Of a stretch of DNA of 20,005 nucleotides, positions 5,881-19,835 are shown in pieces (the stretch's first letter is position 1; every line of letters starts with the position of its first letter). A model generated the notes under the pieces. That model was given only the letters and a program-made list of their open reading frames with translations, ran no database searches and was not told where the DNA came from. The position numbers were made by a program, and so were the translations under genes. This stretch comes from a virus. Location of the stretch: positions 1-20,005 of IMG/VR virus record IMGVR_UViG_3300013136_000057. The stretch is one strand, 5' to 3'.

Positions 5881-8800
5881 TCACACCCCCGCCACCAGTC
5901 GTCTGCTGACCGTTTCTACAAAATAATCTGTCTGCGCTTTGTTAAGCTCTCTTACGTTGAGCTGTATGTGAATCTCGGGCGCGTTGTTTATGGTCCGCTG
6001 GATTGAATTTGTTATGATGTTTTCCAAGGTGCTTAATGGCGAGACGACCTCCGTCCCGGCTTCTCCCACGCCGATCACGCTGGGCGCGTAAAAAACGCCG
6101 CCGTTTCCGTACCACCGCACGTTTATGGCTGCGGTGCTTCCGCCTCCTGTGGCCGACACCGTTCCGCGAATGGTAAGGGCGGCCTTTAAGCTGTTTGCGA
6201 TCTCTTTGGCCACCGCGATCATGGCGGCTTTCGATTCTTTCAGCCCGGATATGATGTCCGTCATTATGCTGGCGCCGATGGTCTGAAACCGGGAGGCTAT
6301 CACCTGGGTGTTCATGGCCGCTTTGGCGTCTATGACCTGCTGCACAACGGATTCGTCCAGCGCTTCGTTCTCGTCCACGCCGGCGGCGTTGGCGTCCATC
6401 ATGTCGCTTCCGATGCGCGTCGCTTCGTCCGACGTCAGCTCATCATCCACCGATCGCACGCCGGCCGCTGCAGCGTTTTTAAGCGCCGCATTAAATTCTG
6501 CAAAGCTGGTATCCCCGGTATCGGTCATGTATTTGACCATGGCGGCCACCGTGGCGCCGGCTTCAGTTCCTTTGTCCCGGAGCTCCTGCAAAAATCCCTT
6601 GTCCAGTCCGCTGCCAGCCAGTACGGCCATATTGTCGGCCCACGCGTTCATGGCCTCCGCGTTTGCGTTGAGGTTGTCCATCATGGATTGCACGGATTGT
6701 GCTTCGCCCTGGTTTATGCGGTTGAATGCGTCCGTGGCCATTGCCACGCGCGCTTCCAGCAGCGCTTTGCGCTTCTCCTCGGCCTCCGCCTGGGCAGTAA
6801 GCTCCGCGTCCGTGTTCGCCTGCCACATCTCCAGCTGCTGGGTCTGCTGGGCGGACAGCGTCTCCCCGTTCTCCTGCATCTGAATAAGCCGCTGCGCTTC
6901 CGCGTCGGTTATAAGCTCGACCGATGCCGCGGCAGCTTCATTCGCTTCGACCACACCGTCCGTGTTATAGGTGTCCAGGTTCTCCTGGCTGTCCACCATC
7001 GTTTCGTTAAGCTCTTTGTCGGCCTTGTCTAAATCCCGGACGCTGTTTATGATCTCCCGGTATTCTTCGGGCGCCTGTACGAACAGGATACTTAATTTGG
7101 CCATTTCCGAAACTTGCTTTTTTTCTTCCGCGGTCAGCCCTTTTAAAAGCTCGCTGCGCTTGTATTCATTCTCGGCCAGCTGCAGCTGGGCATTGGCCAC
7201 GTCGGAGGAAAGCTGCTTTATCCGCTCCATCGTCGCCTGCTGCTCGGCCTGGGCTTTCATGGCTGCTACACTCTTGGTAATCTCCGCGGTGTTCTTATTC
7301 AGCTTCCCGGTGTTCTCGTCAATGACAAGGTTAAGGTCCGGGTATATGGAATTCAGCTGATCGACGTACACACGCATTTGCGCCTGCTCCGCCGCGGTCA
7401 GCTTCGCCTTTTGGGTGAGCGCGTCCAGCTTCCCGACCAGGTCGCCTGCCACGACGCCCTGCGCCGCGATGCTGGCGGTCGTGTCTGCGAAGTCCACGGC
7501 GCCCTGCTTCATGCTGTCGACCAGGTTGTCGGACGCCTCCGTGAGCTGCCGGGTTTCCTCGTCCGCTTTCAGCGCGCTTGAAATAAACACGCCGAGAACG
7601 GCCACCAGGGCCGCGATGCCTGCGATTACCGCCCCGATGGGGTTGGCGCTCATGGCGACGTTCAGTCCCGTCTGTGCGGCGGCCGCGCCCGTCAGCGACG
7701 GAATTAAAGCGATAAGAGCCGCCTTGGCCGCCAGGACGATACCCGAAATTTTAAACGCTGCAAATGCCGCCCCGATGCCTGCGACCACGGCCAGGATTTT
7801 ATCCCCGTTTTTGGCTATATAATCCGCGAATTCAAAGAAAGCCTTTGCGGCTTTTTGCATGATGTTCCCGATCACTTGGCCAAATTTCTGCAGCATGGCT
7901 TGGGTCGCCGGAGAGGCGAGCCGTTGGCTGATCAGCTCGGCGGTCTGTTTAATCGCGGGTATCAGTCCCTCAACAAACGGCGCGGACGCGAGCTTGATCT
8001 GCTGCTTCATCTTGTCCATGGTGTCTTTGTATTTATTTAATTTTGTGAGCTGCTCTCCGCTCAATACCGCCCCTACGGTCCGCGCCTCGTCGCCCAGCTC
8101 TCTTAATCGCGCGCTTCCGGCTGCGACCAGCGGATTGAGCTCCTGGAAGGACCGCCCAAATAGCGCGGTCGCGTATATGTCGGCCTGGGTTTCGTTTGTC
8201 TGCCGGCCGAGCGCGTCGATCACGTCATAGAATATATCTTCCGTATCGCGCAGGGTCCCGTTGGCGTCCTCGTAGGTCACACCGAGCCCTTTGAATGCAG
8301 CGACCTGGTCCTCGGTTCCTTTTCGGGCGTTGTTTATGTTCCGGGTCAGCCGGCCAAGCGACGACCCGAAGGTTTCAATGGAAACGTCGACGATCTCACT
8401 GGCGTATGCAAACTCCTGCAGGGTGTCGGTTGACACACGATACATTGCGCTCATGGTGCTGATGTCGTCCGCGTATTCCGCCAGGCCGTTCACGTTGTCT
8501 TTTATGGCAGTGGTGACCCGGGACACCACTGCGACCGCCGCGGTCGCCGCGGCTGCTATGGCCGCGAATCCCACCGCCGCACTGGCAGAGAAGCCCTTGG
8601 TCTTTTTGGCGGAATCGTCCGCTTTGTTTCCGATGGCTGTGGTGGCGTCCGCCGTTTTCTTGCTTTCGTCCCCGACCTCTTTCAGCTGCGTTTCGTACCC
8701 CTTGAGGTCCTGCTCGGTCTTTACGATCTCCCGCTGCAGGGCGCGATACTGCTCCTCGGAAATCTCGCCCTTTTTGAATTGCTCCTGGGCCTGCTGCTCT

Positions 8801-9033
8801 GCAGTTTTAAGGGTCTTTAACTTGGCTGTGGTATTCTCGACCGCCTCGGTCAGTATCTTTTGTTTCTGCGCGACCAGGGCGACGTTTGTCGGGTCCAGCT
8901 TGAGAAGTTTTTCTACCTGCCGCAGTTCGGATTGCAGGTCCCGGCTTTTCGTATTAACTTGTTCAAGCGCCTTAATCAAAGGCTGGGTGTTCCCACCGAT
9001 CTCAATGGTGATACCCTTTATGCTACCTGCCAT
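5881..9033 (-). CDS. Tail tape measure protein, TP901 type
   Basis: The 1050-aa protein is the longest in the window. Residues 1-125 form a coiled-coil region that starts with GNTQPLIKALEQVNTKSRDL and contains KLDPTNVALVAQKQ, a common opening of Firmicutes tape measures. A first Ala-rich hydrophobic segment spans about 150-172. A TP901-like core (about 180-350) holds STDTLQEFAYAS and ATALFGRSFQELNPL. A long Ala/Gly/Ile/Val-rich hydrophobic region (about 412-488) could insert in the host membrane during DNA entry. The rest is mostly helical. The protein sets tail length and is ejected with the DNA. A TAGGAG ribosome binding site overlaps the stop of the gpT extension 10 bases upstream of its ATG. 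Confidence 0.95.
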   Translation of the reverse strand: MAGSIKGITIEIGGNTQPLIKALEQVNTKSRDLQSELRQVEKLLKLDPTNVALVAQKQKILTEAVENTTAKLKTLKTAEQQAQEQFKKGEISEEQYRALQREIVKTEQDLKGYETQLKEVGDESKKTADATTAIGNKADDSAKKTKGFSASAAVGFAAIAAAATAAVAVVSRVTTAIKDNVNGLAEYADDISTMSAMYRVSTDTLQEFAYASEIVDVSIETFGSSLGRLTRNINNARKGTEDQVAAFKGLGVTYEDANGTLRDTEDIFYDVIDALGRQTNETQADIYATALFGRSFQELNPLVAAGSARLRELGDEARTVGAVLSGEQLTKLNKYKDTMDKMKQQIKLASAPFVEGLIPAIKQTAELISQRLASPATQAMLQKFGQVIGNIMQKAAKAFFEFADYIAKNGDKILAVVAGIGAAFAAFKISGIVLAAKAALIALIPSLTGAAAAQTGLNVAMSANPIGAVIAGIAALVAVLGVFISSALKADEETRQLTEASDNLVDSMKQGAVDFADTTASIAAQGVVAGDLVGKLDALTQKAKLTAAEQAQMRVYVDQLNSIYPDLNLVIDENTGKLNKNTAEITKSVAAMKAQAEQQATMERIKQLSSDVANAQLQLAENEYKRSELLKGLTAEEKKQVSEMAKLSILFVQAPEEYREIINSVRDLDKADKELNETMVDSQENLDTYNTDGVVEANEAAAASVELITDAEAQRLIQMQENGETLSAQQTQQLEMWQANTDAELTAQAEAEEKRKALLEARVAMATDAFNRINQGEAQSVQSMMDNLNANAEAMNAWADNMAVLAGSGLDKGFLQELRDKGTEAGATVAAMVKYMTDTGDTSFAEFNAALKNAAAAGVRSVDDELTSDEATRIGSDMMDANAAGVDENEALDESVVQQVIDAKAAMNTQVIASRFQTIGASIMTDIISGLKESKAAMIAVAKEIANSLKAALTIRGTVSATGGGSTAAINVRWYGNGGVFYAPSVIGVGEAGTEVVSPLSTLENIITNSIQRTINNAPEIHIQLNVRELNKAQTDYFVETVSRRLVAGV

Positions 9034-9043
9034 TTTTTTACTC

Positions 9044-9558
9044 CTACAGTCGGTTGATGTCGTCCTGCGTGGCTTTTCGTACTTGGTCTTTCTCCGGTAT
9101 GAATTCGGACGTGATGTCCCCTATCATGCCGATCGTCAAACATTCAAAATCCGCGACGGTGAGCCCGTGGCTTATTGCAGACGCAATCAGCCCTTGCGTT
9201 GTGAGCTTACCGCCGCTTTTGCGTTTTTTATTTTAGTCGTGGATGCCATGTTGATCATGAGCATATCCTGCAAATCGAGAAAAACGTCCAGGATGGGGAA
9301 TTCCTCGAATTGGTCCAGCCATTCTTCAAAGGTCGGGATCCCTGCGTCTGCGGCTTTGGCCATCGTCCATATCAATTTCATGACCCCGAGGCAGTCCAGG
9401 TTTTCGATAATAAGCTCGTCCTTGTCGTTTATGGTTTTCATAAAGGTGCCCTGCACTTTGAAGATGTCCTCTCCAAAAAAGGCCCTATAAATAAGCGCAT
9501 TCCGCGCGTTGGCTTTCAGTTTAATTTCTTTGCCGTCTATGGTAATTGTCCGCTCCAT
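9044..9558 (-). CDS. Tail assembly chaperone gpGT, -1 frameshift product
   Basis: This is the predicted 171-aa fusion made when ribosomes slip back one base on A AAA AAC (minus strand, at 9223-9229) near the end of gpG. The -1 frame is open for 59 more codons after the slip site and ends with TAG at 9044-9046. It encodes SHGLTVADFECLTIGMIGDI followed by a charged tail ending DDINRL. The LTIGMIGDI segment resembles the (L)T.GEI.D(L)I pattern of T domains in many siphophages. In lambda and its relatives the G and GT proteins coat the tape measure and recruit tail-tube subunits. The extension has no good start codon or ribosome site of its own, and the tape measure begins 10 bases later. Confidence 0.82.
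9187..9558 (-). CDS. Tail assembly chaperone gpG
   Basis: The 123-aa zero-frame product begins MERTITIDGKEIKLKANARN, with ALIYRAFFGEDIF and EWLDQFEEFPILDVFLDLQD following. This matches small tail-chaperone proteins encoded between the major tail and tape-measure genes. It is preceded by an AATCGGAGGAAAG ribosome binding site. The last 12 codons lie beyond the slippery heptamer and are replaced by the T extension in a fraction of products. gpG without T is normally the more abundant form. Absent from mature virions, it guides tail-tube polymerisation around the tape measure. Confidence 0.88.
   Translation of the reverse strand: MERTITIDGKEIKLKANARNALIYRAFFGEDIFKVQGTFMKTINDKDELIIENLDCLGVMKLIWTMAKAADAGIPTFEEWLDQFEEFPILDVFLDLQDMLMINMASTTKIKNAKAAVSSQRKG
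9223..9229 (-). promoter_or_regulatory. Programmed -1 ribosomal frameshift site A AAA AAC
   Basis: The heptamer AAAAAAC lies in the zero frame as ATA AAA AAC, an exact X XXY YYZ slippery motif. It sits 12 codons before the gpG stop, and the -1 frame continues into the T-type extension. The downstream sequence can form a weak stem (CGCAA with TTGCG, plus AGC with GCT), which is poor evidence of a stimulator on its own. The overlapping frames, the motif and the gene position agree. Confidence 0.8.
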
Positions 9559-9584
9559 GATTCTTTCCTCCGATTTAAAAATTT

Positions 9585-9609
9585 AGAGAGGGGCTGCGGG
9601 CCCCTCTCT
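9585..9609 (-). terminator. Hairpin between major tail and chaperone genes (attenuator-type)
   Basis: A perfect 10-bp stem (AGAGAGGGGC with GCCCCTCTCT) closes a 5-base loop. On the minus strand it is followed by AAATTTTT, a delayed and short U tract. Placed directly after the major tail protein, it could act as a partial terminator or a 3'-end stabiliser that lowers expression of the genes downstream relative to the abundant tail-tube protein. Confidence 0.65.
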
Positions 9610-9616
9610 CCGGTTG

Positions 9617-10168
9617 TTATTCGGTTACGTATACAGACTGGTACCAAGTCGCCGCAGCCGTGGTTGCGGCCTCCGACGCCCTTGCTCTGATATATCCGGT
9701 ATCCTGGGCAGGATTGCACGAAATATCAAACTTCACCGTCTTGGGTTCCTCGACGCTCGTCTTGGTGGACGCGTCTGCCGCAGGCCTGGACGCCTGGACG
9801 TTATAAAACGCGAACAGGTTTGCGGCCTCGTCGCCGTCGACCTCAAACAGCATTGCCACCGGCGTGATGGATTCTGCCGAATCCTCCGTGTACACCAGGT
9901 TTGCGTCCTTGATCTCGTTCAGCACGTTTTCCCGGAACCAGTCCGATATCCTTGCGAGCTCCATGGATCCCTTATACCCGTTGTTCTTCGCCTTGGTGAA
10001 GTAGATCCCGTTGTCCGCATAAAACTCGGTGAGCTGTCCCTCCGGCGCCAGTACCATGGCGACCGCGCCGGGGTGCGCCTCGGGCGTCCCGTAGACGATA
10101 TCACTGCCGGACAGGCTGAACGTCGCAAAGTAAACGTTTTTTAAACCAAATTCTACTAAATTGCTCAT
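9617..10168 (-). CDS. Major tail (tube) protein
   Basis: The 183-aa protein starts NLVEFGLKNVYFATFS and contains YADNGIYFTKAKNNGYKGSME and ISDWFRENVL. This pattern is typical of the phi13-type major tail protein family in Firmicutes siphophages. Subunits stack as hexameric rings to form the tail tube. A very strong GAGGAGG ribosome binding site lies 7 bases before the ATG, which suits a highly expressed protein. It is flanked upstream by the neck genes and downstream by the hairpin and the chaperones. No Ig-like C-terminal domain is present. Confidence 0.92.
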   Translation of the reverse strand: MSNLVEFGLKNVYFATFSLSGSDIVYGTPEAHPGAVAMVLAPEGQLTEFYADNGIYFTKAKNNGYKGSMELARISDWFRENVLNEIKDANLVYTEDSAESITPVAMLFEVDGDEAANLFAFYNVQASRPAADASTKTSVEEPKTVKFDISCNPAQDTGYIRARASEAATTAAATWYQSVYVTE

Positions 10169-10202
10169 TTTTAATCCTCCTCAATTTCTTAAAAGAAAAG
10201 CG

Positions 10203-10598
10203 TCACCCTTTGCGGATCACGCCCTCCACTAGGTCCTCAAATTCCTTTTTTGCCTGCTCCTCGTTCTTTTGTATGTGCGGAAATGCCCGCGTCTTTTTCC
10301 CGTTTACCGTCATGTGCCCCCGCTCTAAAAGATGGGCCAGCCGGTAATGCGGAGCTTTGACGTACCACGTCACACTTTTTCCATATAACGTGCTGCTGGT
10401 TTTTTTAAGGTCCATCGCCCGGATATACTTTTTGCCACCAATCCCGGCGGCGCGGGCGTCCCTCTTGATGTTGTTTTTAAGCTCTCCGCCCACATACTCG
10501 ACCGCCTGGTCGACGCCTGTCTTTACCCGGCTGCTGTACATTTCAAGCTCTCGCCCGACCGCCGAGGCCAGGCCGCCAATTTCAATCTGTGCGCTCAC
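10203..10598 (-). CDS. HK97 gp10-like neck/tail-joining protein
   Basis: The 131-aa basic protein has the HK97-gp10-like signature: an N-terminal helix (EMYSSRVKTGVDQAVEYVGG), a KYIRAMDLKK segment, and a conserved YRLAHLLERGHMTVNGKKT motif followed by RAFPHI. Members join head and tail or complete the tail. The start is GTG, overlapping the upstream stop as GTGA, which implies translational coupling. An intergenic gap of about 34 bases separates it from the major tail gene. Confidence 0.88.
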   Translation of the reverse strand: MSAQIEIGGLASAVGRELEMYSSRVKTGVDQAVEYVGGELKNNIKRDARAAGIGGKKYIRAMDLKKTSSTLYGKSVTWYVKAPHYRLAHLLERGHMTVNGKKTRAFPHIQKNEEQAKKEFEDLVEGVIRKG

Positions 10599-10918
10599 GG
10601 CCTCGCCCCCGTTTCGTATATAAGCTCAAATGTTCCCTGGTTTTCGACGTAGAATCCGTCCACCACCTCAAACGGCAGCTCGTTGGTATTAAGCGCGCTT
10701 TCCAGGGCCGCCTTTGCAGTTTTGTTCGGCGTCCGGCCAAGGCTAACCAAGCGAATTGTTACGACGTCGGACCTGTAATAAACCTTATTGTCGGCCGGCA
10801 GATTGTTGCTGCGGTTCCGCTCGTAAATGATAAAGGGCGGCGCGACACCGGAATTGTCCGGGAATTCGTTTTCAGATACCCGGTATCCGGTCGATGCCAA
10901 AATCTGATATAACGTCAC
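10595..10918 (-). CDS. Tail terminator-like / head-tail joining protein
   Basis: The 107-aa protein contains PPFIIYERNRSNNLPADNKV and VTIRLVSLGRTPNKT, then a helix and a GFYVENQGTFELIYE segment. This is the small alpha/beta layout of tail-terminator-type proteins (lambda gpU-like and DUF3168-like), which cap the tail tube and bind the neck. It starts at a GTG that overlaps the stop of the head-closure gene and ends in a GTGA overlap with the gp10-like gene. It comes before gp10 in transcription order, whereas many HK97-type phages have the reverse order. Family assignment is tentative. Confidence 0.7.
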   Translation of the reverse strand: MTLYQILASTGYRVSENEFPDNSGVAPPFIIYERNRSNNLPADNKVYYRSDVVTIRLVSLGRTPNKTAKAALESALNTNELPFEVVDGFYVENQGTFELIYETGARP

Positions 10919-11238
10919 GTCCTCACCACCGCCTTTTTTTTCATTATGTTGTTCTCAAAGAAAAGGTTGTCCGGGTCGATGATGTCGTAGGTCTGCCCGT
11001 TCCATACGATGTAATCCTGGGCCGTCAGGCTCGCGATCGCGCTGTCGTAGAAAATCTTAAACACGACCGTCTTTTCTGCCTGCATCGCCCTGGCGGTCCA
11101 AAACTCCGCCCCGGATAAACTGTTAGCCGCCGCCCACGCAACCAGCAGCGTGGTGTCGGTGCCTATCGGTGACCAGTCCCCTGTGGTAGTGCTCTGCGTG
11201 GTCGCGGCTTTGCGCTTGATGGTTATCTTGTGCTTCAT
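10915..11238 (-). CDS. Head-closure / head-tail adaptor protein
   Basis: I place the start at the ATG at 11236-11238, giving 107 aa that begin MKHKITIKRKAATTQ and include GDWSPIGTDTTLLVAWAAAN, SGAEFWTARAMQAEKTVVF and DYIVWNGQTYDII. The alternation of short strands and the hydrophobic-W-G turn near the C-terminus match SPP1 gp16-like head-closure proteins. The same frame is open up to 11403, but that longer version would run deep into the gp6-like gene and its extra residues are not family-like. The ribosome binding site at the chosen start is weak, so coupling to the upstream gene is likely. Confidence 0.82.
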   Translation of the reverse strand: MKHKITIKRKAATTQSTTTGDWSPIGTDTTLLVAWAAANSLSGAEFWTARAMQAEKTVVFKIFYDSAIASLTAQDYIVWNGQTYDIIDPDNLFFENNIMKKKAVVRT

Positions 11239-11273
11239 GTCCGCCGCATCAAACCCGGGCTTCTCTCGTAATA

Positions 11274-11612
11274 TCACGACACGTCCACCTCCCGCCTGGG
11301 ATATAAAAGGTCGCGGAATGCGCGAAGCCATCCGGGGTCCGTTGACTTTTCGTGCGTGGCTACGCAGTACAAATAAAGCGCCTGCTTGATTGACGCCGGG
11401 CACGTCGCCGCGGTGTATCCCACCGTGGTGACCACGCCGTCGTCGTCCGTTATCGTGCCGCGGGCGATGTAGATGTGCATGTAGTCCTCGGCCGCCTCTC
11501 GGGCCGCTTTTATGAGCTCGTCCACGTCGGCGTCGGTCATGTTTGTCACCCGCATGGCGTCTTTAGCCTGCGCCCGCGTGATCGGTTCCTCTGTTATCGT
11601 TCTCGTCGCCAT
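11274..11612 (-). CDS. Head-tail connector, gp6-like
   Basis: The 112-aa protein contains PITRAQAKDAMRVTN, DVDELIKAAREAAEDYMHIY and PASIKQALYLYCVATHE, a helical pattern with the L-I-x-A-R-x-A-x-x-Y core of HK97 gp6-type connectors. These form a ring under the portal. A GGGAGG ribosome binding site six bases before the ATG fixes the start. Because of that start, the gene overlaps the last 50 bases of the upstream glycosyltransferase in another frame. Confidence 0.88.
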   Translation of the reverse strand: MATRTITEEPITRAQAKDAMRVTNMTDADVDELIKAAREAAEDYMHIYIARGTITDDDGVVTTVGYTAATCPASIKQALYLYCVATHEKSTDPGWLRAFRDLLYPRREVDVS

Positions 11613-12213
11613 GTTCAGCCTCCCATGTTAATGACCCCGGCCTCGGGTATGTATACTGGACCAGCGGAACATTAAAGCCCGCTTGCCGCACACTCGGCCG
11701 GTGAAATACTCGCATGCAAAAATCCAAATCCTCCGCCGTGCGCGCCTCCTCATCAAATCGAATCTGACCGATGAATTTCCGGCGCCATGCCCGGCTCCAC
11801 ACGTTGCACCATAGTCCGTTGCCGTTTGGGTTCAATATTCCGACGGGTCGCCGCCCAAACAAAAAACCGAAATGCAAAACGTCCAGGTCCTGGGCGCGCA
11901 GCTGCTCGTCTATGAATTCCAGCGCCTGGTCCGTGAAATAATAGTCGTCGGAATCCAGGAATAGGATATACTCACCTTTTGCGCGGTCCAGGCCGGCGTT
12001 CCTGGCCGCCCCGGGGCTCCCGCGGTCAATGACAAGGACCGCAGTGTTTTCGCGCACCGCGCACGCCCTGGCCGCCTCCTCCGTCCCGTCGCTGCAGGCG
12101 TCGCATATCACGATAAGCTCGTAATCTGTGAACGTTTGGCGCTGCACACTCTGTATGGCCCGCTTTATGTATTCCTCGGTGTCGTGGGCCGGAATGATCA
12201 CCGAAAATCTCAT
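11563..12213 (-). CDS. GT-A glycosyltransferase, family 2 type
   Basis: The 216-aa protein begins FSVIIPAHDTEEYIKRAIQS, the classic GT2 nucleotide-sugar-binding strand. It has CDACSDGT (about 37-44), SPGAARNAGLDRAKGEYI, a DSDD metal-binding DxD (87-90), NVWSRAWRRKFI (about 137-148), and TAEDLDFCMRVF with the catalytic-base ED pair (161-162). No membrane segments are seen. It should transfer a sugar from a nucleotide sugar onto an acceptor in the cytoplasm. It overlaps the previous glycosyltransferase by ATGA and the connector gene by 50 bases, so it is built into the head-neck operon. A plausible acceptor is a virion protein. Confidence 0.9.
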   Translation of the reverse strand: MRFSVIIPAHDTEEYIKRAIQSVQRQTFTDYELIVICDACSDGTEEAARACAVRENTAVLVIDRGSPGAARNAGLDRAKGEYILFLDSDDYYFTDQALEFIDEQLRAQDLDVLHFGFLFGRRPVGILNPNGNGLWCNVWSRAWRRKFIGQIRFDEEARTAEDLDFCMRVFHRPSVRQAGFNVPLVQYTYPRPGSLTWEAEHGDENDNRGTDHAGAG

Positions 12214-12821
12214 AGGTGGATCCCACCTTTGTATGTGATGTAATGCTCCGCGTATATCGGCCGCGTTTCCAGGTGCCCTACCCGTATCCGGGGGTCAATC
12301 CGCACCCTGTACCCGGCCTGGTTCGCCCGGATGCAAAAGGCCAAATCCTCCCCGGACAGTGGCAGGGGGAGGAAATGCGGCGGTTTCACGTTCTCGAAAA
12401 CCTCCCGCCGTATCAGCATGCACGCCGCGCCGGCGCCATCCACATCGAACGGTTCCTTTGGCAGCTTGTCAAATTCCAGCACCTCCATGGCCAGGCCCGG
12501 CCCGTTCAGTTTCAGGCTGGGATAGACGCACGGAGTATAAGGCGGCACCCGTTTAAAACACATCGCGCTTGCGATCGGCACATCCAAATCGGCCAGGCGG
12601 TCTGCGACGTCTGCCGGAAAAATCATATCATCGTCCAAAAATAACAGGGCGTCAAAGTTGCCTTTGATAAGCGCCCCCGCCATCTGCTCCCTGGCTATGT
12701 GTGGAACCGATCGCGCAATGAAGCACTGCGTTATTTCGTGTTTGCTGGCCAGGTTAGAAAGCTGTATAACAAATTCCACCGGGAGGCTCCCGGCCGTTGG
12801 TATTCCTAGTAAAATCTTCAT
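12210..12821 (-). CDS. GT-A-fold glycosyltransferase (second of a pair)
   Basis: The 203-aa protein has a GT-A layout: KILLGIPTAGSLPVEFVIQL, a LLFLDDDMIF metal-binding DDD (63-65), a sugar-binding middle with DVDGAGAACMLIRREVFENV (about 126-145), LSGEDLAFCIRA with a probable catalytic ED (157-158), and VGHLETRPIY in which His183 may be the third metal ligand. This resembles short, soluble family-2-like glycosyltransferases found in phages and mobile elements. It is the first gene after the hairpin that follows the head-fibre-like gene, and it is translationally coupled to the second glycosyltransferase. The donor sugar and the acceptor cannot be read from the sequence. Confidence 0.85.
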   Translation of the reverse strand: MKILLGIPTAGSLPVEFVIQLSNLASKHEITQCFIARSVPHIAREQMAGALIKGNFDALLFLDDDMIFPADVADRLADLDVPIASAMCFKRVPPYTPCVYPSLKLNGPGLAMEVLEFDKLPKEPFDVDGAGAACMLIRREVFENVKPPHFLPLPLSGEDLAFCIRANQAGYRVRIDPRIRVGHLETRPIYAEHYITYKGGIHL

Positions 12822-12857: not shown

Positions 12858-12892
12858 GCAGGGACGCGGCTCGGAGCGTACCGCGTCCCTGC
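12858..12892 (-). terminator. Strong hairpin after the capsid/head-fibre genes
   Basis: A perfect 12-bp stem (GCAGGGACGCGG with CCGCGTCCCTGC) encloses an 11-base loop. On the minus strand it is followed by ATTTTATTTTTT. This is a good intrinsic terminator. Because essential neck and tail genes follow, it probably acts as a partial terminator that favours capsid transcripts, or is overridden by late antitermination. Confidence 0.8.
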
Positions 12893-12923: not shown

Positions 12924-13226
12924 TTATGTGCCGGACGTTGTCACGGCGATGGATGCTGTCGTTGCGTCGCTGAACGTCACCGTGCCTCCGGTTACCGCGC
13001 CGTCGGTCGTGATCAGCTCGATGGCTGCCACCGATAATCCGTCCGCGCCGTCCGCGCCAGCGGCACCGGCCGCGCCATCTTCACCGTCAGCGGGCGCTGT
13101 ATAGTTTTCCGCGACCTTTTCGATCGCCTCCGCGATGTCGTTGGCGTCTATGTCCTCTGCCGTAGTTTCGCCGCCGGCAAACGTCGCCGCCAGTCCCTTA
13201 ATTGCACTTACGATGTCTTGGGCCGT
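12924..13226 (-). CDS. Collagen-like head-fibre-type protein with apparent ACG start
   Basis: This 100-codon frame has no ATG, GTG or TTG near its ribosome site. An in-frame TGA lies 6 bases upstream, and an AGGAGG motif (13235-13240) lies exactly 8 bases before an ACG at 13224-13226. With ACG read as Met, the protein begins MAQDIVSAIKGLAATFAGGE and continues with a helical DANDIAEAIEKVAENY. Five Gly-x-x triplets follow (residues 48-63, GEDGAAGAAGADGADG), then a strand-rich C-terminal part ending TTASIAVTTSGT. Collagen-like triplets followed by a small beta domain are seen in phage head-fibre and decoration proteins. Its place directly after the capsid gene agrees. ACG may be a true rare start or a mutated ATG. 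Confidence 0.72.
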   Translation of the reverse strand, partial: TAQDIVSAIKGLAATFAGGETTAEDIDANDIAEAIEKVAENYTAPADGEDGAAGAAGADGADGLSVAAIELITTDGAVTGGTVTFSDATTASIAVTTSGT

Positions 13227-13262
13227 TTTTCACACCTCCTGTGCTGGCCCTGGTTGCAAGTA

Positions 13263-14399
13263 TTACTTGCACACCAGGTATTTGATCGCCTCCGGGAGCG
13301 TCAGGCCGCCGTCGAGCCGCTGGGTCGACAGAAATCCGACCTGACCATATTCCGCATATCGTTCCGTGAGCCGCTGGGTGTAGATGCCCAGCCGGAGCCC
13401 GATTTTGTAATACTTGAAGTTGCCAAACAGGATCGCCTTGGCCCCGGTCGTCAGCGCGGGCATATATTCGCTCGCTTTCATCGGCTTGCCGAGCAGCCGG
13501 TCGGGATCGCCCTCGGTAAGGCTGGGCTTGAATATAAACTGGTTCGAGCTGTCCTGCAGCGTCATGATTGACAGCAGGGCACCGTCCGAAATCAGCCAGG
13601 AGCCCTTGGCCCTGTACGGGCGTCTAACCCCCGTAAAGAGGCCGGCGATGTCGTTGTAGTTGAACGACCCGGTCACGCTGGAAGTCACCCCAAAGGAGGC
13701 GGAAACTGCCGCGCCGCGAGGCACACCGGAGGCCGTGCCGTTGATGAAAGAATCTTCCGCCAGGAGGCCCATCTGCAGGCCCGTGTCCTGTCCGATGTAT
13801 GCCGCGATGTCGAATGCGCTATCCTGGATTAATTCCACGGAGGCTTTAACCAGGGCGCCGAGCTTTTTCGCTTTCAGCGTAACCGCGCTGAAGGAAACCG
13901 TGGAGCCGGTGATCGCCGCCGCTTCTTCTACCCAGTACGCCGTGGAATTGCTCGCCCCGACCGGGATGTCCATTGACTGTTCGCCCAGGTTCATCACGTC
14001 GGCCAGCTGCAGCATGACGCTCGCGTCATACTCGGCCGCGATGATGGCGTTGTACAAGTCCTTGGGAACCAAGACCGCCGCGGATCCCGTTGCGGTGCTC
14101 ACGTCATTCGAGATTTTAAGCCCCTGGGGAATGCCGGACCGCAGGAAGTTTGCAAACTTCGTGAGCTCGTCCATGCTCGGATTTGCGGCCGCGAATTTTT
14201 CAGCCTGGTCCTCGATGGCTTCCGCCTCCCGCATTGCGTCGATCTGCTCGCCCAAGGATTTAATCTCGGCCGTGACATTGTTAAACTTCACGGCTGCATC
14301 GGCATCCATGGCCTTGCCGCCGGCTGCTTCCACCATCGCCTGCATGTTTTTCACGGCATCGTGGCGTTTGGAAACAAGTTCGTCTAAAATTCTGCTCAT
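13263..14399 (-). CDS. Major capsid protein, HK97 fold
   Basis: The 378-aa protein has an N-terminal helical region (about 1-75, with SRILDELVSKRHDAVKNMQA and EIKSLGEQIDAM) that serves as the delta/scaffold domain removed on maturation. It continues with the HK97 core: VLVPKDLYNAIIAAEYDASV, DIPVGASNSTAYWVEEAAAI, LKAKKLGALVKASVELIQDS, AEDSFINGTASGVPRGA and GDPDRLLGKPM. No separate scaffold gene is present, which fits a delta-domain capsid. An AAAGGAG site lies 8 bases before the ATG, and the start overlaps the protease stop by 4 bases. Confidence 0.96.
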   Translation of the reverse strand: MSRILDELVSKRHDAVKNMQAMVEAAGGKAMDADAAVKFNNVTAEIKSLGEQIDAMREAEAIEDQAEKFAAANPSMDELTKFANFLRSGIPQGLKISNDVSTATGSAAVLVPKDLYNAIIAAEYDASVMLQLADVMNLGEQSMDIPVGASNSTAYWVEEAAAITGSTVSFSAVTLKAKKLGALVKASVELIQDSAFDIAAYIGQDTGLQMGLLAEDSFINGTASGVPRGAAVSASFGVTSSVTGSFNYNDIAGLFTGVRRPYRAKGSWLISDGALLSIMTLQDSSNQFIFKPSLTEGDPDRLLGKPMKASEYMPALTTGAKAILFGNFKYYKIGLRLGIYTQRLTERYAEYGQVGFLSTQRLDGGLTLPEAIKYLVCK

Positions 14400-15265
14400 T
14401 TCATACTCTCCTTTATCGAATAAAATTCCGCCATGTAGGCGTAGTCCTGTAAACCCTCGGTATCGGGCTCACTCCCTCCGCCTGCCGGCGGTTCTTCCTC
14501 TGTTCCGCCTGCAGGCGGTTCACCCTCGGGCGGCATCTCCTCGGCCGCTTGCGCGGCCGTCGTGCCGTCCTTGTTGTCCAGCTTGTCTATCAGTTCTTGC
14601 GGCAAAACACGCGGCGCCATGGCGCTGTAGGCCGCGCGCATGCGTGTTTTAAGGGTGTTCAATAGCTGGGGCCCCGGCTGCGGTTCGTCGTCTGCAAACA
14701 TGATCTCGTCGATCAGTTTCATGCCGAGCGCCTCCTGGGCGTCGTACCACGATTCGTGGTCCATGATGTCTTTTATCGTTTTGTCGTCGAGGCCGGTCCT
14801 GGCCTTATAAGCTGAAGCGCACGCCTTGTTGACGGTCTGCAGAATCTCCGCGGAATGCTGCATCACCCGATAGTCGCCCTCGCTCCTGGTCGACGCGTTG
14901 TGAATCATCATCAGCGCCGTCGGGGACATGAACAGTTTCCCGGGATCCGCGCCCATCGCTATGACCGACGCGGCCGATGCTGCCATTCCCTCAATCTTGA
15001 CAGTGACCGCGCCGGCATAGTCCCGCAGCTCCGTGTATATCTGCGACGCTGCTACGTAATCCCCGCCGGGGCTGTCAATCCGCACGACGATGGGCGCTCC
15101 GCCCATCATGTCCAGCACGTCGTTGACGTCGCCGGGGCAGATGGCCGGCCATCCGAACCAGTCATATACCGGTTTCCAGTCATTGGAAACAATTTCGGCG
15201 TCGATTCGTATCTCGGCGCCGCTTTCGTTTCGTATCAAATTCTTAATAAGCAAGTTCCTAATCAT
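14396..15265 (-). CDS. ClpP-type prohead protease
   Basis: The 289-aa protein has a ClpP-fold domain (about 17-190). It includes DSPGGDYVAA (64-73), IEGMAASAASVIAMGAD with catalytic Ser97, MMIHNAST with His122, and MDHESWYDAQEALGMKLIDE, in which Asp169 is the probable third catalytic residue. Residues about 192-289 form an acidic, Pro/Gly-rich extension with repeated PPAGG motifs. The protease matures the procapsid by cutting the capsid delta domain and itself. The acidic tail may serve in assembly. It lies between portal and capsid with a 4-base overlap to the capsid gene, the standard HK97 order. Confidence 0.94.
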   Translation of the reverse strand: MIRNLLIKNLIRNESGAEIRIDAEIVSNDWKPVYDWFGWPAICPGDVNDVLDMMGGAPIVVRIDSPGGDYVAASQIYTELRDYAGAVTVKIEGMAASAASVIAMGADPGKLFMSPTALMMIHNASTRSEGDYRVMQHSAEILQTVNKACASAYKARTGLDDKTIKDIMDHESWYDAQEALGMKLIDEIMFADDEPQPGPQLLNTLKTRMRAAYSAMAPRVLPQELIDKLDNKDGTTAAQAAEEMPPEGEPPAGGTEEEPPAGGGSEPDTEGLQDYAYMAEFYSIKESMK

Positions 15266-15268
15266 GAA

Positions 15269-16498
15269 TTAGGCCCCCTCTCCAAGTTTCCGCATGTTCA
15301 GCGGGACGTAGTGGTCATCCCCGCCCGGCACCTCCGGGAGGTTCTCTTTCGCGCGGACCTCGTTAATGGACAGCCATCCGTTGGCCAGGGCTTTCGCGTA
15401 TGCCTCGAACCGGTCCGTCTGTCGGCCGCGGAGCATCACGTTGAGGTCTGCCTCGATGTATGTGCCCGCTTCCCGCTCGCTCGGGAATATAAGCGCCTGG
15501 GCAGCCGCCTGCTCGATGTTTTTTATCCATGGCATCAGCGTGTCCTGGGCGAAGCTCAAATTCATTTCTTCGATGTTGTTCCACGTCGCCCGGTCCAGGT
15601 CCATTATTTTGTGGGGAGGCACGTTAAAAAATCGCGCCATCTCAGTCACCTGGAATTTGCGCGATTCTATCATCTGTCCCTCGATCGGCGGGCTGGAAAC
15701 CTTTTCGTATTTCATGCCCTCCTCCAGCAGCATGAGCCGCTGGGATTTTCCGAGCCCGGAATACGCTGCGCGGATCTCCGATTTGAATGCTTTTTCCTGG
15801 TCCTCATTCAGCCCGCCCTTGTAGGTGATCACCCCGGGCGGGTGTGTGCCGTTTGCGAAATACTCACTTGCGTATTCCTCCGCGGCGATGGCCAGGCCCA
15901 GGACCTCACGCAGTAGTGATATGGGCTGGTATGCAATGAAGCCGTCCGTGGCCAGGCCCGGTATCTCGATCACCTGGTTGTATTTCAGCGCGTAGGCTTC
16001 CATCCCATCCATCTGCACCACGTACTCCGGCCGGAGCGTCCGGCGGTCTATCTTCTTTGTCACGTACTTGCTGGGTATCGGATAAAGCGCGACCGGCTTT
16101 CCGCTCTTACGGACCACTTCGATGTACCCGGCTTCCGTGAGCAGCGCGTTGGCCATAACGATGCGCCAGCCCCGGTATGCGGTCAGATAGTCATTCCATT
16201 CGACGTTCATCAGCTTGTGGGCCGGGTGCTTCTTGTCTTTGTCCCTGCCGCCTTTGTCGTTGGTTTTAAAAATGCCCCACGACAAACACCCGACGGCCGC
16301 CGATATCACGTTTACACACGCGTATGCGGCCGAAACCTGAAGCGCGTTATCCCGTGTCACGGTGATTCCGCTCTTGCTGGCCTGCCCGCCCAGGGCGGAC
16401 ATCAGCCAGGCTTCCGGGTCGGTTATCGTGGAAAACAAATTTTTAATAAAACGACCGGCTCGCACAAAGCCGGACCGAATTGCATTAGTGAATCTCAA
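15269..16498 (-). CDS. Portal protein, HK97 family
   Basis: Landmarks are SKSGITVTRDNALQVSAAYACVN, WNDYLTAYRGWRIVMANAL, EYVVQMDGMEAYALKYNQVI, YFANGTHPPGVI, RKFQVTEMARFFNVPPHKI and LSINEVRAKENLPEVPGGDD, all typical of the Phage_portal/HK97 family. Twelve copies form the DNA entry ring at one capsid vertex. The frame is open to a GTG at 16505-16507, but that codon overlaps the AGGAGG ribosome site. The TTG at 16496-16498 lies exactly 8 bases downstream of it, so I choose TTG (409 aa); the longer GTG form would have 412 aa. Confidence 0.95.
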   Translation of the reverse strand: MRFTNAIRSGFVRAGRFIKNLFSTITDPEAWLMSALGGQASKSGITVTRDNALQVSAAYACVNVISAAVGCLSWGIFKTNDKGGRDKDKKHPAHKLMNVEWNDYLTAYRGWRIVMANALLTEAGYIEVVRKSGKPVALYPIPSKYVTKKIDRRTLRPEYVVQMDGMEAYALKYNQVIEIPGLATDGFIAYQPISLLREVLGLAIAAEEYASEYFANGTHPPGVITYKGGLNEDQEKAFKSEIRAAYSGLGKSQRLMLLEEGMKYEKVSSPPIEGQMIESRKFQVTEMARFFNVPPHKIMDLDRATWNNIEEMNLSFAQDTLMPWIKNIEQAAAQALIFPSEREAGTYIEADLNVMLRGRQTDRFEAYAKALANGWLSINEVRAKENLPEVPGGDDHYVPLNMRKLGEGA

Positions 16499-16510
16499 AT
16501 GTCGCACCTC

Positions 16511-18079
16511 CTAAACCGTGATAATTCCGCGGCGCTCGTATACGCTGCCCGGGGTGCCCTCGTTCTTGATCAGCACGTACATGGCGTTTATCATGGCCAC
16601 CGTGAGGTCAATCCTGCCGGTGCTGCGTATTTTCTGCGGTTTGTAGTTTTCGTTGCCGTCCATGACCACCTTTGTGTTCCCGAAGCACCAGCGTGCCAGC
16701 GGGTTTGCGCCGTGCTTCAGTTTTCCGATGCGGAGCAGGCGCTCGATCTCTTTCATGGTCGGGGACATGGCGGATATGTTCTGTCGGACCTCGGTCAGCT
16801 CGATTGGCCTTTCCTCCCGCATTAAATCCTGGCGCAGTTTCTCGGCGCCCCACGGGTCGTTCCCGTGCTCTTTGATTTTGTACACACCGTTTTGCCGCAC
16901 GATTGTGGCCCGGATGAAATCGTAATCGATCACATCGCCCGGCGTGGCGTGGAGATACCCCCCGCGCACCCACCTGCTGAACGGGACCTTGTCGTCGCGC
17001 TCCCGCTGCCGCATGCCGTCCTCCGGCATGAATGCTTCGAAAAGCACATAGAAAAACGGCAGGCCCTCCTGGGGCGGGAAAACGTAAGCGAGCCCGCTTA
17101 AGTCGACCACACTTGAAAGGTCCAGCCCCGCGTAGCAGCGCTTCCCGATCAAGTCCTCCAGCTTGACGTCCTCGGTGTTTTGGTCCCAAAGCGTAAGCGG
17201 AAGCCAGGACGCGGCCTTGTTGGCCATCCATTGGTTCAGCCGCAACCACCGGAACAGTCTTTCCTCCGCTTCGCTATTGCGGGCGCCGATGGCCGCCTGC
17301 CGCACCTTTTCGATGTCGATCGTGTATCCCAGCGACGGGTTTAGCCTATACCACAGCGCTTCGTCGTAAATGTCGCCCTCAAAATCGGGCTCCAGGCCCC
17401 ATATTTTGCAATACCAACGCGGATCCACGAGCTCTCCGGCGATAATTTTCCGGGCTTTTTCGTGTATTTCCCAGCCGATGCTCGTCCGATCGGGGTCGTC
17501 GCCGGCCGTAGTGATCACGTACCACATCGGTTCGGTCCGCGAATCGCCCGAATTTCCGGTCATAACGTCCCATAATTCGCGGTTAGGCTGCGCGTGTATC
17601 TCGTCAAAAATGACGCACGACACATTTAAACCGTGCTTCGTGGGCGCTTCCGCGGCCAAAACTTTATAAATCGAGCCCGTGAGCCGGTCGTGAATCTCTT
17701 TCCTGGACCGCAGTACCTTGGCCCGCTTCTTTAGCATCGGGTTTTGGTCGATCATCGCGCACGCGACATCAAACACAAGGGACGCCTGCTGCTTGTCCCC
17801 CGCACACCCGTATATCTCGCCCATCACCTCTCCATCTGCGAACAGGTGATATAAAGCGATGGCGGCTCCCAGCTCACTCTTGCCGTTTTTCTTGGGAATC
17901 TCCAGGTAGATATACTGGTATTGTCGGAGCCCGTGCTCGTTTAGTGTGCCGTAAGCCTCCGCGATCGTGTCGTACTGCCACGGTAAAAGCTCGAATGGCT
18001 TTCCGGCCCACCGGCCCTTTGTATGCTTGAGCTGCTGTATAAAATCGATTGTATACAGCGCGAGGTCATTGCTGAACAT
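16511..18079 (-). CDS. Terminase large subunit (Terminase_1, HK97 type)
   Basis: The 522-aa packaging motor has an adenine-binding WQYDT segment (34-38), a Walker A-like EIPKKNGKSE (60-69), Walker B VIFDE (156-160), and coupling motif VITTAGDD (188-195). A C-terminal RNase-H-like nuclease starts at YAGLDLSSVVDLSG, where Asp320 is the first metal ligand. It pumps DNA into the procapsid through the portal and cuts the concatemer. Its start overlaps the small subunit by 14 bases, and the portal gene follows within about 12 bases. Confidence 0.96.
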   Translation of the reverse strand: MFSNDLALYTIDFIQQLKHTKGRWAGKPFELLPWQYDTIAEAYGTLNEHGLRQYQYIYLEIPKKNGKSELGAAIALYHLFADGEVMGEIYGCAGDKQQASLVFDVACAMIDQNPMLKKRAKVLRSRKEIHDRLTGSIYKVLAAEAPTKHGLNVSCVIFDEIHAQPNRELWDVMTGNSGDSRTEPMWYVITTAGDDPDRTSIGWEIHEKARKIIAGELVDPRWYCKIWGLEPDFEGDIYDEALWYRLNPSLGYTIDIEKVRQAAIGARNSEAEERLFRWLRLNQWMANKAASWLPLTLWDQNTEDVKLEDLIGKRCYAGLDLSSVVDLSGLAYVFPPQEGLPFFYVLFEAFMPEDGMRQRERDDKVPFSRWVRGGYLHATPGDVIDYDFIRATIVRQNGVYKIKEHGNDPWGAEKLRQDLMREERPIELTEVRQNISAMSPTMKEIERLLRIGKLKHGANPLARWCFGNTKVVMDGNENYKPQKIRSTGRIDLTVAMINAMYVLIKNEGTPGSVYERRGIITV

Positions 18080-18587
18080 TGACCTTTGGCTTTCCTCGGT
18101 TTAGCAGCAGGCCCATGGGATCATTATCCGCTTCCTTTTCCCGGGCCATGCCGAGCCGCGCCCGGCCGACCGGGGACATGCACAGCTGCTCCGCCAGCCG
18201 GATGATGTTCTTTATCTGCCGGTCCATTACGGTGATGTACGGGCTTTGCACTATCTTCCCGTCGACCAGGCCCGCGACCGGGTGGAGCCCCTCCGCCTGT
18301 TTGCGTTGGGCCTCTTTGTATATGGACACCGCCTCGCAATATGCCATAAGAACCGACACGTCCAGGTCGTTGATCACCTCGGAATCAAGCTCCCGGTATA
18401 ATTTAATAACCCGGTGCCATTCCCTTTGGGCCTCTTTGCTTAATCCACTTGGCATCTTCAGCTTTGCGCTGCAGCCCTTGGGCGTATTGTCCTCCCTGGT
18501 TGTTTGTTCCTCCTGGGTAAGGTGCCGGGTAGAATTGTCCACCAAATGAAAAGGACGGGGCTTCCGGCCTCCGCCATTGTTACTCAT
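18066..18587 (-). CDS. Terminase small subunit, P27 family
   Basis: The 173-aa protein has the P27-type layout: a Gly/Arg-rich N-terminus (GGGRKPRPFHLV), PSGLSKEAQREWHRVIKLYREL, NDLDVSVLMAYCEAVSIYKE, SPYITVMDRQIKNIIRLAEQ and LCMSPVGRARLGM. It binds the packaging start site and regulates the large subunit. The start codon overlaps the stop of the methyltransferase gene (ATGAGTAA), implying coupling to that gene. An apparent frameshift upstream could therefore affect its translation unless independent initiation occurs. Confidence 0.94.
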   Translation of the reverse strand: MSNNGGGRKPRPFHLVDNSTRHLTQEEQTTREDNTPKGCSAKLKMPSGLSKEAQREWHRVIKLYRELDSEVINDLDVSVLMAYCEAVSIYKEAQRKQAEGLHPVAGLVDGKIVQSPYITVMDRQIKNIIRLAEQLCMSPVGRARLGMAREKEADNDPMGLLLNRGKPKVNVQQ

Positions 18588-19059
18588 CTAATTTCACCGC
18601 CTTTTGCCCCGTGAATTTCTCCCATCTATCGATGATAACGTCTGAATATTTCGGGTCGAATTCCATCATGTAGCACGCCCGGCCCAGCTGCTCGCATGCG
18701 ATCGCCGTGGATCCGCTGCCCCCGAACAAGTCCAGCACCAGGTCCCCGGGCTTGCTGCTGTTTTTTATAAGCCGCCCGAGCAGTTTGATGGGCTTCATTG
18801 TCGGGTGCTCTGCGTTCCTGGCCGGGCGGTCCTCATGGATTACGGTTGATGCCGGGCCCGGTTCGAGCAGCTCTTTGAGAAGCTCTTTCATCTCCGTTTT
18901 CTTGAGCTTGTTTATATCGATGCGGTCCTCGAATACCGTCGTTTGCCGCCGGTCGTCTATGAAGTAATGCGCGGCGCCGTTCTTCCACCCGTACAGGCAC
19001 GGTTCGTGCCTCCACTGGTAATCCTGCCGCCCAAGCACGAGCGCGTTCTTTACCCACAC
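18580..19059 (-). CDS. DNA methyltransferase, C-terminal half (split by frameshift)
   Basis: The 159 residues from the first possible start (GTG) hold the second half of a beta-class DNA methyltransferase: KNALVLGRQDYQWRHEPCLY, HPTMKPIKLLGRLIKNSSKP, and the S-adenosylmethionine-binding motif DLFGGSGSTAIACEQLGR. The same frame stays open upstream as GGYDLRQCLVW, which joins naturally to the upstream ORF if one base is restored near 19080-19087. There is no ribosome site at the GTG. I therefore read this as the 3' part of one broken gene (18580-19835, 418 aa if repaired) rather than a separate gene. Confidence 0.85.
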   Translation of the reverse strand: MWVKNALVLGRQDYQWRHEPCLYGWKNGAAHYFIDDRRQTTVFEDRIDINKLKKTEMKELLKELLEPGPASTVIHEDRPARNAEHPTMKPIKLLGRLIKNSSKPGDLVLDLFGGSGSTAIACEQLGRACYMMEFDPKYSDVIIDRWEKFTGQKAVKLDE

Positions 19060-19835
19060 CAGGCACTGCCGTAAATCGTAGCCGCCTCCCGGAATGCCCG
19101 GCGGAAATTGTATCCCTCGCTGTCCGCGTGAAAAACATACGCCGCGGCGCCCTGCCTGGAATGTTCGTTCATCTGCCGGAATGCGGCGGTCAGAAATTCT
19201 AAAAACTGGACGTCCTCCATCTTGTCGTTTTCAATGCGGAGGCGCGCCGGTGTCCCGCCCTGGTAGTCCACGTTGTATGGCGGGTCCGTCAGGGCCAGGT
19301 CTGCCCGCGCGAAAGCCATTAGCTTTTTCACGGCCTCCGGGCTGGTCGCGTCCCCGCACATTAACCGGTGCGCGCCGAGCTGGAAAATTTCCCCGCGTTT
19401 TGACTTGGGGTTCTTGGGCGGATCCGGCTCGTAGTTGTCCTCCTGCACGTCGGTCTGCTCGGTGTATTCGTCAAATCCGAATGCCTCCATGTGGAAGTCG
19501 GCCGCGACAGATTTTAGGAGCTCGTCGAGCTTTATGTTGTCCCAGGCGCCCTGCGCTTTATTGACGGCCATGTTCGCCGCCTTTTCGGTCTGCTCGTCAA
19601 AGTCGACCACGACGCATTCGATCTCGGTGCGGCCCTCCGCGGTTAAAATTTTGAACCGCTGGTGTCCCCCGACAAGGTTGCCGGTCCTCTCGTTCCATAT
19701 GATCGGGTCGATGTACCCGAAGGTGTCCAGGCTGTTTTTTATGTGCTGGTATTCCTTATCGGTCTGCTTGAGGTCTTTCCTGGGGTTGTATGCTGCCGGT
19801 TTTATCCGGTCGACCGGTATCTTTTCAATTTTCAT
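19050..19835 (-). CDS. ParB-domain DNA adenine methyltransferase, N-terminal part (frameshifted)
   Basis: Residues 1-110 form a ParB/Srx-like N-terminal domain with IPVDRIKPAAYNPRKDL, a NLVGGHQRFKIL motif and KAANMAVNKAQGAWD. From about residue 150 the methyltransferase begins: RGEIFQLGAHRLMCGDATS and the catalytic motif IV, DPPYNVDYQGG. DPPY before FGGSG is the beta-class order, and DPPY with Asn after it suggests N6-adenine methylation. The frame then runs through YNFRRAFREA and fails in about a dozen unrelated residues ending AWCG. ParB-methylase fusions are common in Firmicutes phages next to terminase genes. A CGGAG site lies 8 bases before the ATG. The break may be real or a sequence error. 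Confidence 0.88.
   Translation of the reverse strand: MKIEKIPVDRIKPAAYNPRKDLKQTDKEYQHIKNSLDTFGYIDPIIWNERTGNLVGGHQRFKILTAEGRTEIECVVVDFDEQTEKAANMAVNKAQGAWDNIKLDELLKSVAADFHMEAFGFDEYTEQTDVQEDNYEPDPPKNPKSKRGEIFQLGAHRLMCGDATSPEAVKKLMAFARADLALTDPPYNVDYQGGTPARLRIENDKMEDVQFLEFLTAAFRQMNEHSRQGAAAYVFHADSEGYNFRRAFREAATIYGSAWCG

Follow-up and report, generated by a model that had tools for sequence, protein, structure and literature searches.

Gene order at the locus

The window, that is, the whole stretch of DNA analysed, comprises the 20,005 bp of IMG/VR virus contig IMGVR_UViG_3300013136_000057, which is a partial record and not a complete genome. Its minus strand carries, in this order, a ParB-like/DNA methyltransferase region, a probable TerS, the terminase large subunit (TerL; 16511..18079; PF20441, 7e-43; PF03354, 3e-21), the portal protein (15269..16507; PF04860, 2e-93), a ClpP-type head maturation protease (14396..15265; PF00574, 6e-24) and an HK97-type major capsid protein (MCP; 13263..14399; PF05065, 1.5e-58; phrog_10, 2e-69). 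These are followed by a short collagen-like/head-fibre-like open frame (12924..13229; phrog_34916 tail fibre, 1.5e-7), the glycosyltransferase genes GT1 (12210..12821) and GT2 (11563..12213), a gp6-like head–tail connector (11274..11612; phrog_442, 1e-6; PF05135, 0.038, under the Pfam cut-off), a head closure protein (10915..11403; phrog_25, 1.9e-15), and neck and tail proteins, including tail-completion and major tail (tube) proteins (the latter at 9617..10168; phrog_88, 1.3e-36), with an amidase at the end. The stop codon of GT1 and the start codon of GT2 share an ATGA at 12210..12213, and the 3' end of GT2 overlaps the start of the connector gene by 50 bp. The arrangement described in an earlier sequence-only reading, namely two GT-A enzymes joined by ATGA and sited between the capsid/collagen-like genes and gp6, was thus confirmed from the sequence and the models. 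Both GC and GC3 of the GT genes are in line with those of their neighbours, so a recent foreign insertion is not indicated. A sigma-70 promoter scan of the window returned nothing above chance.

The collagen-like frame has no in-frame ATG, GTG or TTG near its start, and a GTG with a good Shine–Dalgarno sequence lies close by, one base out of frame; a frameshift, a contig error or an unusual start would each account for this. Elsewhere in the window, the ParB-N/N6_N4 methyltransferase region (18580–19835) is split over two frames (19050–19835 and 18580–19059) that each hold part of the methylase domain, which is a second hint of a contig indel, or else a decayed gene.

The gap between the collagen-like gene and GT1 contains an intrinsic-terminator-like hairpin on the minus strand (12858..12892; GCAGGGACGCGG...CCGCGTCCCTGC followed by ATTTTATTT), with a T-rich tail and a folding energy of -28.2 kcal/mol. 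It was omitted by the consensus terminator scan because its loop is longer than the scan allows. Of 26 related loci, 18 have a comparable hairpin behind the capsid gene, loci without GT genes among them; the element recurs inside the head operon, right after the capsid gene or the capsid and fibre genes. Given this position, expression of the GT genes may be attenuated relative to that of the capsid gene. Capsid would then probably be made in excess of the products of the downstream genes, which would suit the catalytic amounts in which a GT enzyme is needed.

GT1 and GT2 as GT-A glycosyltransferases

GT1 (203 aa) is a soluble GT-A glycosyltransferase of the A197/phrog_1574 type, and GT2 (216 aa) is a soluble GT-A glycosyltransferase of family 2. 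In Pfam, GT2 matched PF00535 (E=2e-23; 83 bits against a cut-off of 23), and GT1 gave a weak match (E=0.005; 17 bits against a cut-off of 27). In PHROG, GT1 matched phrog_1574 (4e-15) and the glycosyltransferase family phrog_12406 (2e-9), and the N-terminal part of GT2 matched GtrB-like families; features of GtrB-type O-antigen conversion were sought, and neither C-terminal membrane helices nor a gtrA/gtr partner was found in the window.

The AlphaFold2 models (pLDDT 92.5 for GT1 and 89.3 for GT2) both adopt the GT-A fold, with best PDB matches at E=5e-12 and E=2e-15, respectively. Comparison of the predicted structures with known glycosyltransferases, a check proposed in the sequence-only reading, placed STIV A197 (2c0n; E=5e-12; 20% identity) at the top for GT1, followed by the collagen glycosyltransferases LH3 and COLGALT1 and mimivirus R699, with the mucin-type GalNAc-T2 lower down. 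The matches of GT2 comprised a Leptospira GT, TarS/TarP, RmlT and others.

The catalytic motifs are FLDDDM (D63–D65), GED (E158–D159) and H183 in GT1, and LDSDD (D87, D89, D90) and AED (E161–D162) in GT2. Residues D63, D65, D159, F162 and H183 of GT1 are invariant across 28 relatives; among 26 relatives of GT2, D87, D89 and D90 are invariant, and D162 is present in at least 90%. Neither protein has membrane helices (maximal 19-residue hydropathy of 1.54 for GT1 and 0.76 for GT2). In the loci with the same gene order described below, dN/dS is about 0.05–0.07 for both genes, denoting strong purifying selection. GT1 and GT2 are therefore intact GT-A glycosyltransferases with conserved catalytic residues.

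Recurrence of the pair and neighbours of its relatives

Scans of IMG/VR with GT1 or GT2 as single sequences yielded no matches, so that alignment-based queries were needed, and loci with the pair were found with a GT2-alignment scan. The search for the pair between capsid and gp6 genes of other phages, as suggested in the sequence-only reading, retrieved the order MCP–GT1–GT2–gp6 in the same slot of about ten divergent rumen/gut phage contigs. This quartet is exact in L209/L290, L212, L223, L224, L291, L294 and L297, and has one end missing or an unrecognised gp6 in L211 (which starts at GT1), L292, L293 and L295. Most of the quartet contigs share sample prefixes that we take to denote rumen metagenomes. 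The ATGA overlap between GT1 and GT2 is found in L224 and L211 as in the window. Between the window and L209, the MCPs show 26% identity over 133 aa and the TerLs 25%, and similarity between the gp6 proteins is undetectable; GT2 is 44% and GT1 30% identical, as would fit a pair either exchanged laterally or retained over a long time. In the GT2 tree, the window falls within a supported clade (97/95) that holds quartet GT2s only. The GT2 of the L297 quartet falls elsewhere in this tree, which indicates that the quartet order arose on at least two occasions. The GT1 tree pairs the window with L180 and gives weak support to the window's position among the other Clostridia-phage GT1s. This L180 region (6556–8470), from a prophage-like part of a Clostridiales MAG, contains a portal-like gene, GT1, a second GT-like gene, a radical-SAM-like protein and a scaffold-like gene, and could be a larger particle-modification cassette.

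A capsid-chosen set was obtained by scanning with the MCPs of L209, L223 and L224 alone, which gave 52 loci readable downstream. GT1 lies directly downstream of MCP in 49 of these 52 loci, which, the set having been seeded from GT-bearing phages, reflects stable co-inheritance there and not general prevalence; the three loci without GT1 are L302, L303 and L304. After GT1, the 49 loci have GT2 in 10 cases and a second GT1-like gene in 11. When the capsids were merged at 80% identity, 16 of the resulting 18 groups had GT1.

Among 77 terminase relatives of the window, no gene of the GT1 or GT2 family was found in the sequence examined, so the pair is dispensable in that lineage; the MCP–connector slot, where read, holds decoration or fibre-like genes, or is empty. 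In three of these relatives (L005, L035 and L042), large decoration/fibre-like genes fill an MCP–gp6 interval of up to several kilobases, so the interval serves phages of this type as a general accessory slot.

A GT1-chosen set comprised 80 IMG/VR loci picked by GT1 sequence alone, the query comprising sequences from the window and from two Manatee Spring phages. In 56 of the 80, GT1 is preceded on its strand by an MCP gene that ends no more than 2 kb away; drawing any gene from the same locus instead would be expected to give 15. Of 26 GT1 clusters (60% identity), 20 have an upstream capsid gene. The capsids beside GT1 belong to six PHROG families (1328, 267, 10, 371, 14242 and 334), and the gene after GT1 is an adaptor in many of the loci. 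Exceptions comprise a group between TerL and portal, another close to tail fibres, and a small remainder. Bacillota MAGs, including Clostridia, carry GT1 in the same slot (L181 from Mogibacterium, L182, L184 and probably L183), and cyanophage relatives are located near baseplate or tail-fibre genes. In L169, L225 and L228, a GT1–DUF4406–GT8–GT2 cassette, whole or in part, is found close to a primase-like gene and outside the head module. In L169 it spans 8001–10415, with a DUF4406-like gene second, a GT8-like gene third and a 4-bp overlap between the latter and GT2; L238 has the cassette or part of it. GT2-family genes, often in tandem, also occupy other head-module intervals, namely TerL-like/portal-like and portal/protease, in L214, L226, L233 and L239 and in L213, L215, L216 and L231.

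In the alphaproteobacterial loci L189, L191, L195 and L197, relatives of GT1 are found directly upstream of flagellin–FlbT–FlaF, in the order GT4-like, GT1b, GT1, flagellin, FlbT, FlaF. Two tandem GT1-family genes are present in L189 and L197; GT1b is absent from L191, and at least a remnant of it is seen in L195, whose contig begins inside the cluster. On the other side of the flagellin genes, L197 has an FlmG-like TPR-glycosyltransferase, for which FlmG, a flagellin glycosyltransferase, provides the comparison, as soluble glycosyltransferases modify flagellin in the cytoplasm (PMC7591256). These relatives are candidate flagellin glycosylation enzymes, as judged by their gene neighbours. Other cellular GT1 relatives have no gene for a self-assembling surface protein as a neighbour. 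With capsid genes beside them in viruses and flagellin genes in bacteria, viral and some cellular GT1s thus adjoin genes for self-assembling surface proteins. The sequence-only reading had held that homologues residing mainly in host polysaccharide loci would speak against a virion acceptor, and the relatives of GT1 do not reside mainly there.

Candidate acceptors and proposed function

The reading that we prefer, with a probability of roughly two in three, is that a glycan begun by GT1 and lengthened by GT2 is built on one of the phage's own virion proteins, most likely the capsid. Our inferences about enzyme activity, the acceptor and the sugar, the order in which the two act and the benefit are as follows. 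Both enzymes would be cytoplasmic and active, and would be made late along with the head genes. GT1, proposed to act first, would attach the first sugar directly to a virion protein from a host nucleotide-sugar donor, the major capsid protein being the most likely acceptor and the tail tube protein the second choice. GT2, the proposed extending enzyme, would add to this sugar to yield a short glycan on the particle; the benefit could be a shielded particle or a change in its stickiness. A virion-protein acceptor is favoured by the flagellin-adjacent relatives, the match to STIV A197, the mycobacteriophage precedents and the families of the cluster J cassette. Such an acceptor had been suggested in the sequence-only reading, and it has good backing, by association, from the recurrence of the pair in its slot and the enrichment of GT1 after six capsid families. 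The idea of two enzymes acting in sequence stays plausible in terms of gene content, as in the capsid-chosen set GT2 in the slot is always accompanied by GT1 (10/10) and GT1 alone is common.

The main rival, which we consider unlikely, is that the two enzymes alter a polymer on the host surface, either wall teichoic acid or another polysaccharide, late in infection, so that progeny avoid debris or competing phages are excluded. It draws on the nearest folds of GT2, which include the wall teichoic acid glycosyltransferases TarS, TarP and RmlT, on the GtrB-like PHROG matches of its N-terminal part, and on the host-capsule modification proposed for a head-module GT of Gratiaviridae (PMC8008677). 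However, the resemblance of GT2 to TarP and TarS lies in the catalytic GT-A domain (normalised to query length, TM about 0.75); GT2 stops at 216 aa without their extra C-terminal domains, and it sits in a head operon. Moreover, neither GT has membrane helices, no flippase is encoded in the window, and the relatives of GT1 go with capsid genes, or with flagellin genes in some bacteria, rather than with polysaccharide loci.

Glycosylation of the collagen-like head-fibre protein from the gene immediately before GT1, in the manner of collagen glycosylation by LH3/COLGALT1, had been given preference in the sequence-only reading and is now improbable. In its favour, GT1 has the fibre gene next to it in the window, L166 likewise has MCP, a fibre-like gene and GT1 in succession, and the GT1 model matches human LH3 and COLGALT1 and mimivirus R699; yet these matches reflect generic GT-A similarity (TM about 0.65), and in the quartets, as in most other slots, GT1 has no fibre gene separating it from MCP. 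The Gly-X-Y stretch, GEDGAAGAAGADGADG, contains no Ser, Thr or Lys; Ser and Thr occur in the C-terminal part of the protein. With the capsid gene, and not the fibre gene, as the constant neighbour of GT1, the collagen-like protein was rejected as a general acceptor. Glycosylation of a modified base in the phage's DNA, as an anti-restriction measure, is very improbable, since the GT1 family tracks capsid genes, its top fold matches are A197 and protein-acceptor glycosyltransferases, and this partial 20-kb record showed no recognisable partner gene for base modification, even though virus-encoded DNA-hypermodifying glycosyltransferases are known (cited in PMC12619734) and the L169 cluster lies near replication genes.

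Returning to glycosylation of the virion, self-glycosylation of particles has so far been shown experimentally mainly for mycobacterial phages, whose glycosyltransferases modify capsid and tail tube according to PMC12363180 and PMC12619734 (both citing Freeman 2023). As described there, the systems of Che8 (gp108–110) and Corndog (gp36–38) consist of several small phage glycosyltransferases, like the pair in the window. In Corndog the genes sit within the virion operon, with portal on one side and protease on the other, and their products are not packaged (PMC4351075). For mycobacteriophages, the glycan site reported on the MCP is its C-terminus. The GT genes of the window lie inside the virion module, as in Wanda and Corndog, whereas those of Che8 are at the genome end; BLASTP of the window GTs against Che8 gp110, the experimentally implicated capsid glycosyltransferase, revealed no detectable similarity (E=2.3 and 0.026). 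The window also differs in host group, which would be Bacillota judging by its relatives, and in its MCP–gp6 slot, and its glycan is a predicted one. Cluster J phages (Wanda gp15–gp24) have a GT cassette in the MCP–connector interval, the same slot as the window pair, and GT1 and GT2 resemble phrog_12406 (Wanda gp15; 2e-9) and phrog_9549 (Wanda gp18; 1e-5), respectively. The similarity is remote, and that cassette has 8–10 genes, including a kinase and a methyltransferase, against two in the window; its genes were described in 2013, with roles stated as not known (PMC3706429).

Outside the tailed phages, A197 is a minimal GT-A enzyme like GT1 and comes from a virus, STIV, that has a glycosylated capsid and for which A197 is essential (PMC10551542). 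However, STIV is an archaeal virus with an unrelated virion, and A197 has no proven acceptor either (PMC10551542). The alphaproteobacterial flagellin loci share with the window a GT1-family enzyme beside a gene for a self-assembling surface protein; they differ in being cellular, with flagellin in place of capsid, and their glycosyltransferases are putative. The suggestion of a poorly described virion-decoration system therefore has to be narrowed. Phage self-glycosylation itself is known, and a system of this type has been described in mycobacteriophages (PMC12363180, PMC4351075, PMC3706429); what is new here is the different GT lineage, the recurrent capsid–connector slot and the different host group.

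More tentatively, and with the odds somewhat against it, the GT1 (A197/phrog_1574) family could be a dedicated lineage acting on self-assembling surface lattices, i.e. unrelated tailed-phage capsids, an archaeal virus capsid and bacterial flagellins. If so, capsid glycosylation would be a widespread trait of gut and aquatic phages, with the capsid–connector interval as the preferred slot, GT1 as the priming enzyme and an exchangeable second glycosyltransferase diversifying the glycan. For the large unannotated phage family phrog_1574, a testable acceptor is offered. Should the pair indeed act on the virion, sugar-coated capsids would be common in gut/rumen Bacillota phages and not a mycobacteriophage peculiarity. 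This would affect the proteomic annotation of particles through shifted masses and missing capsid peptides, provide a source of small soluble enzymes for protein glycosylation, and bear on the encounters of these phages with mucus, proteases and antibodies.
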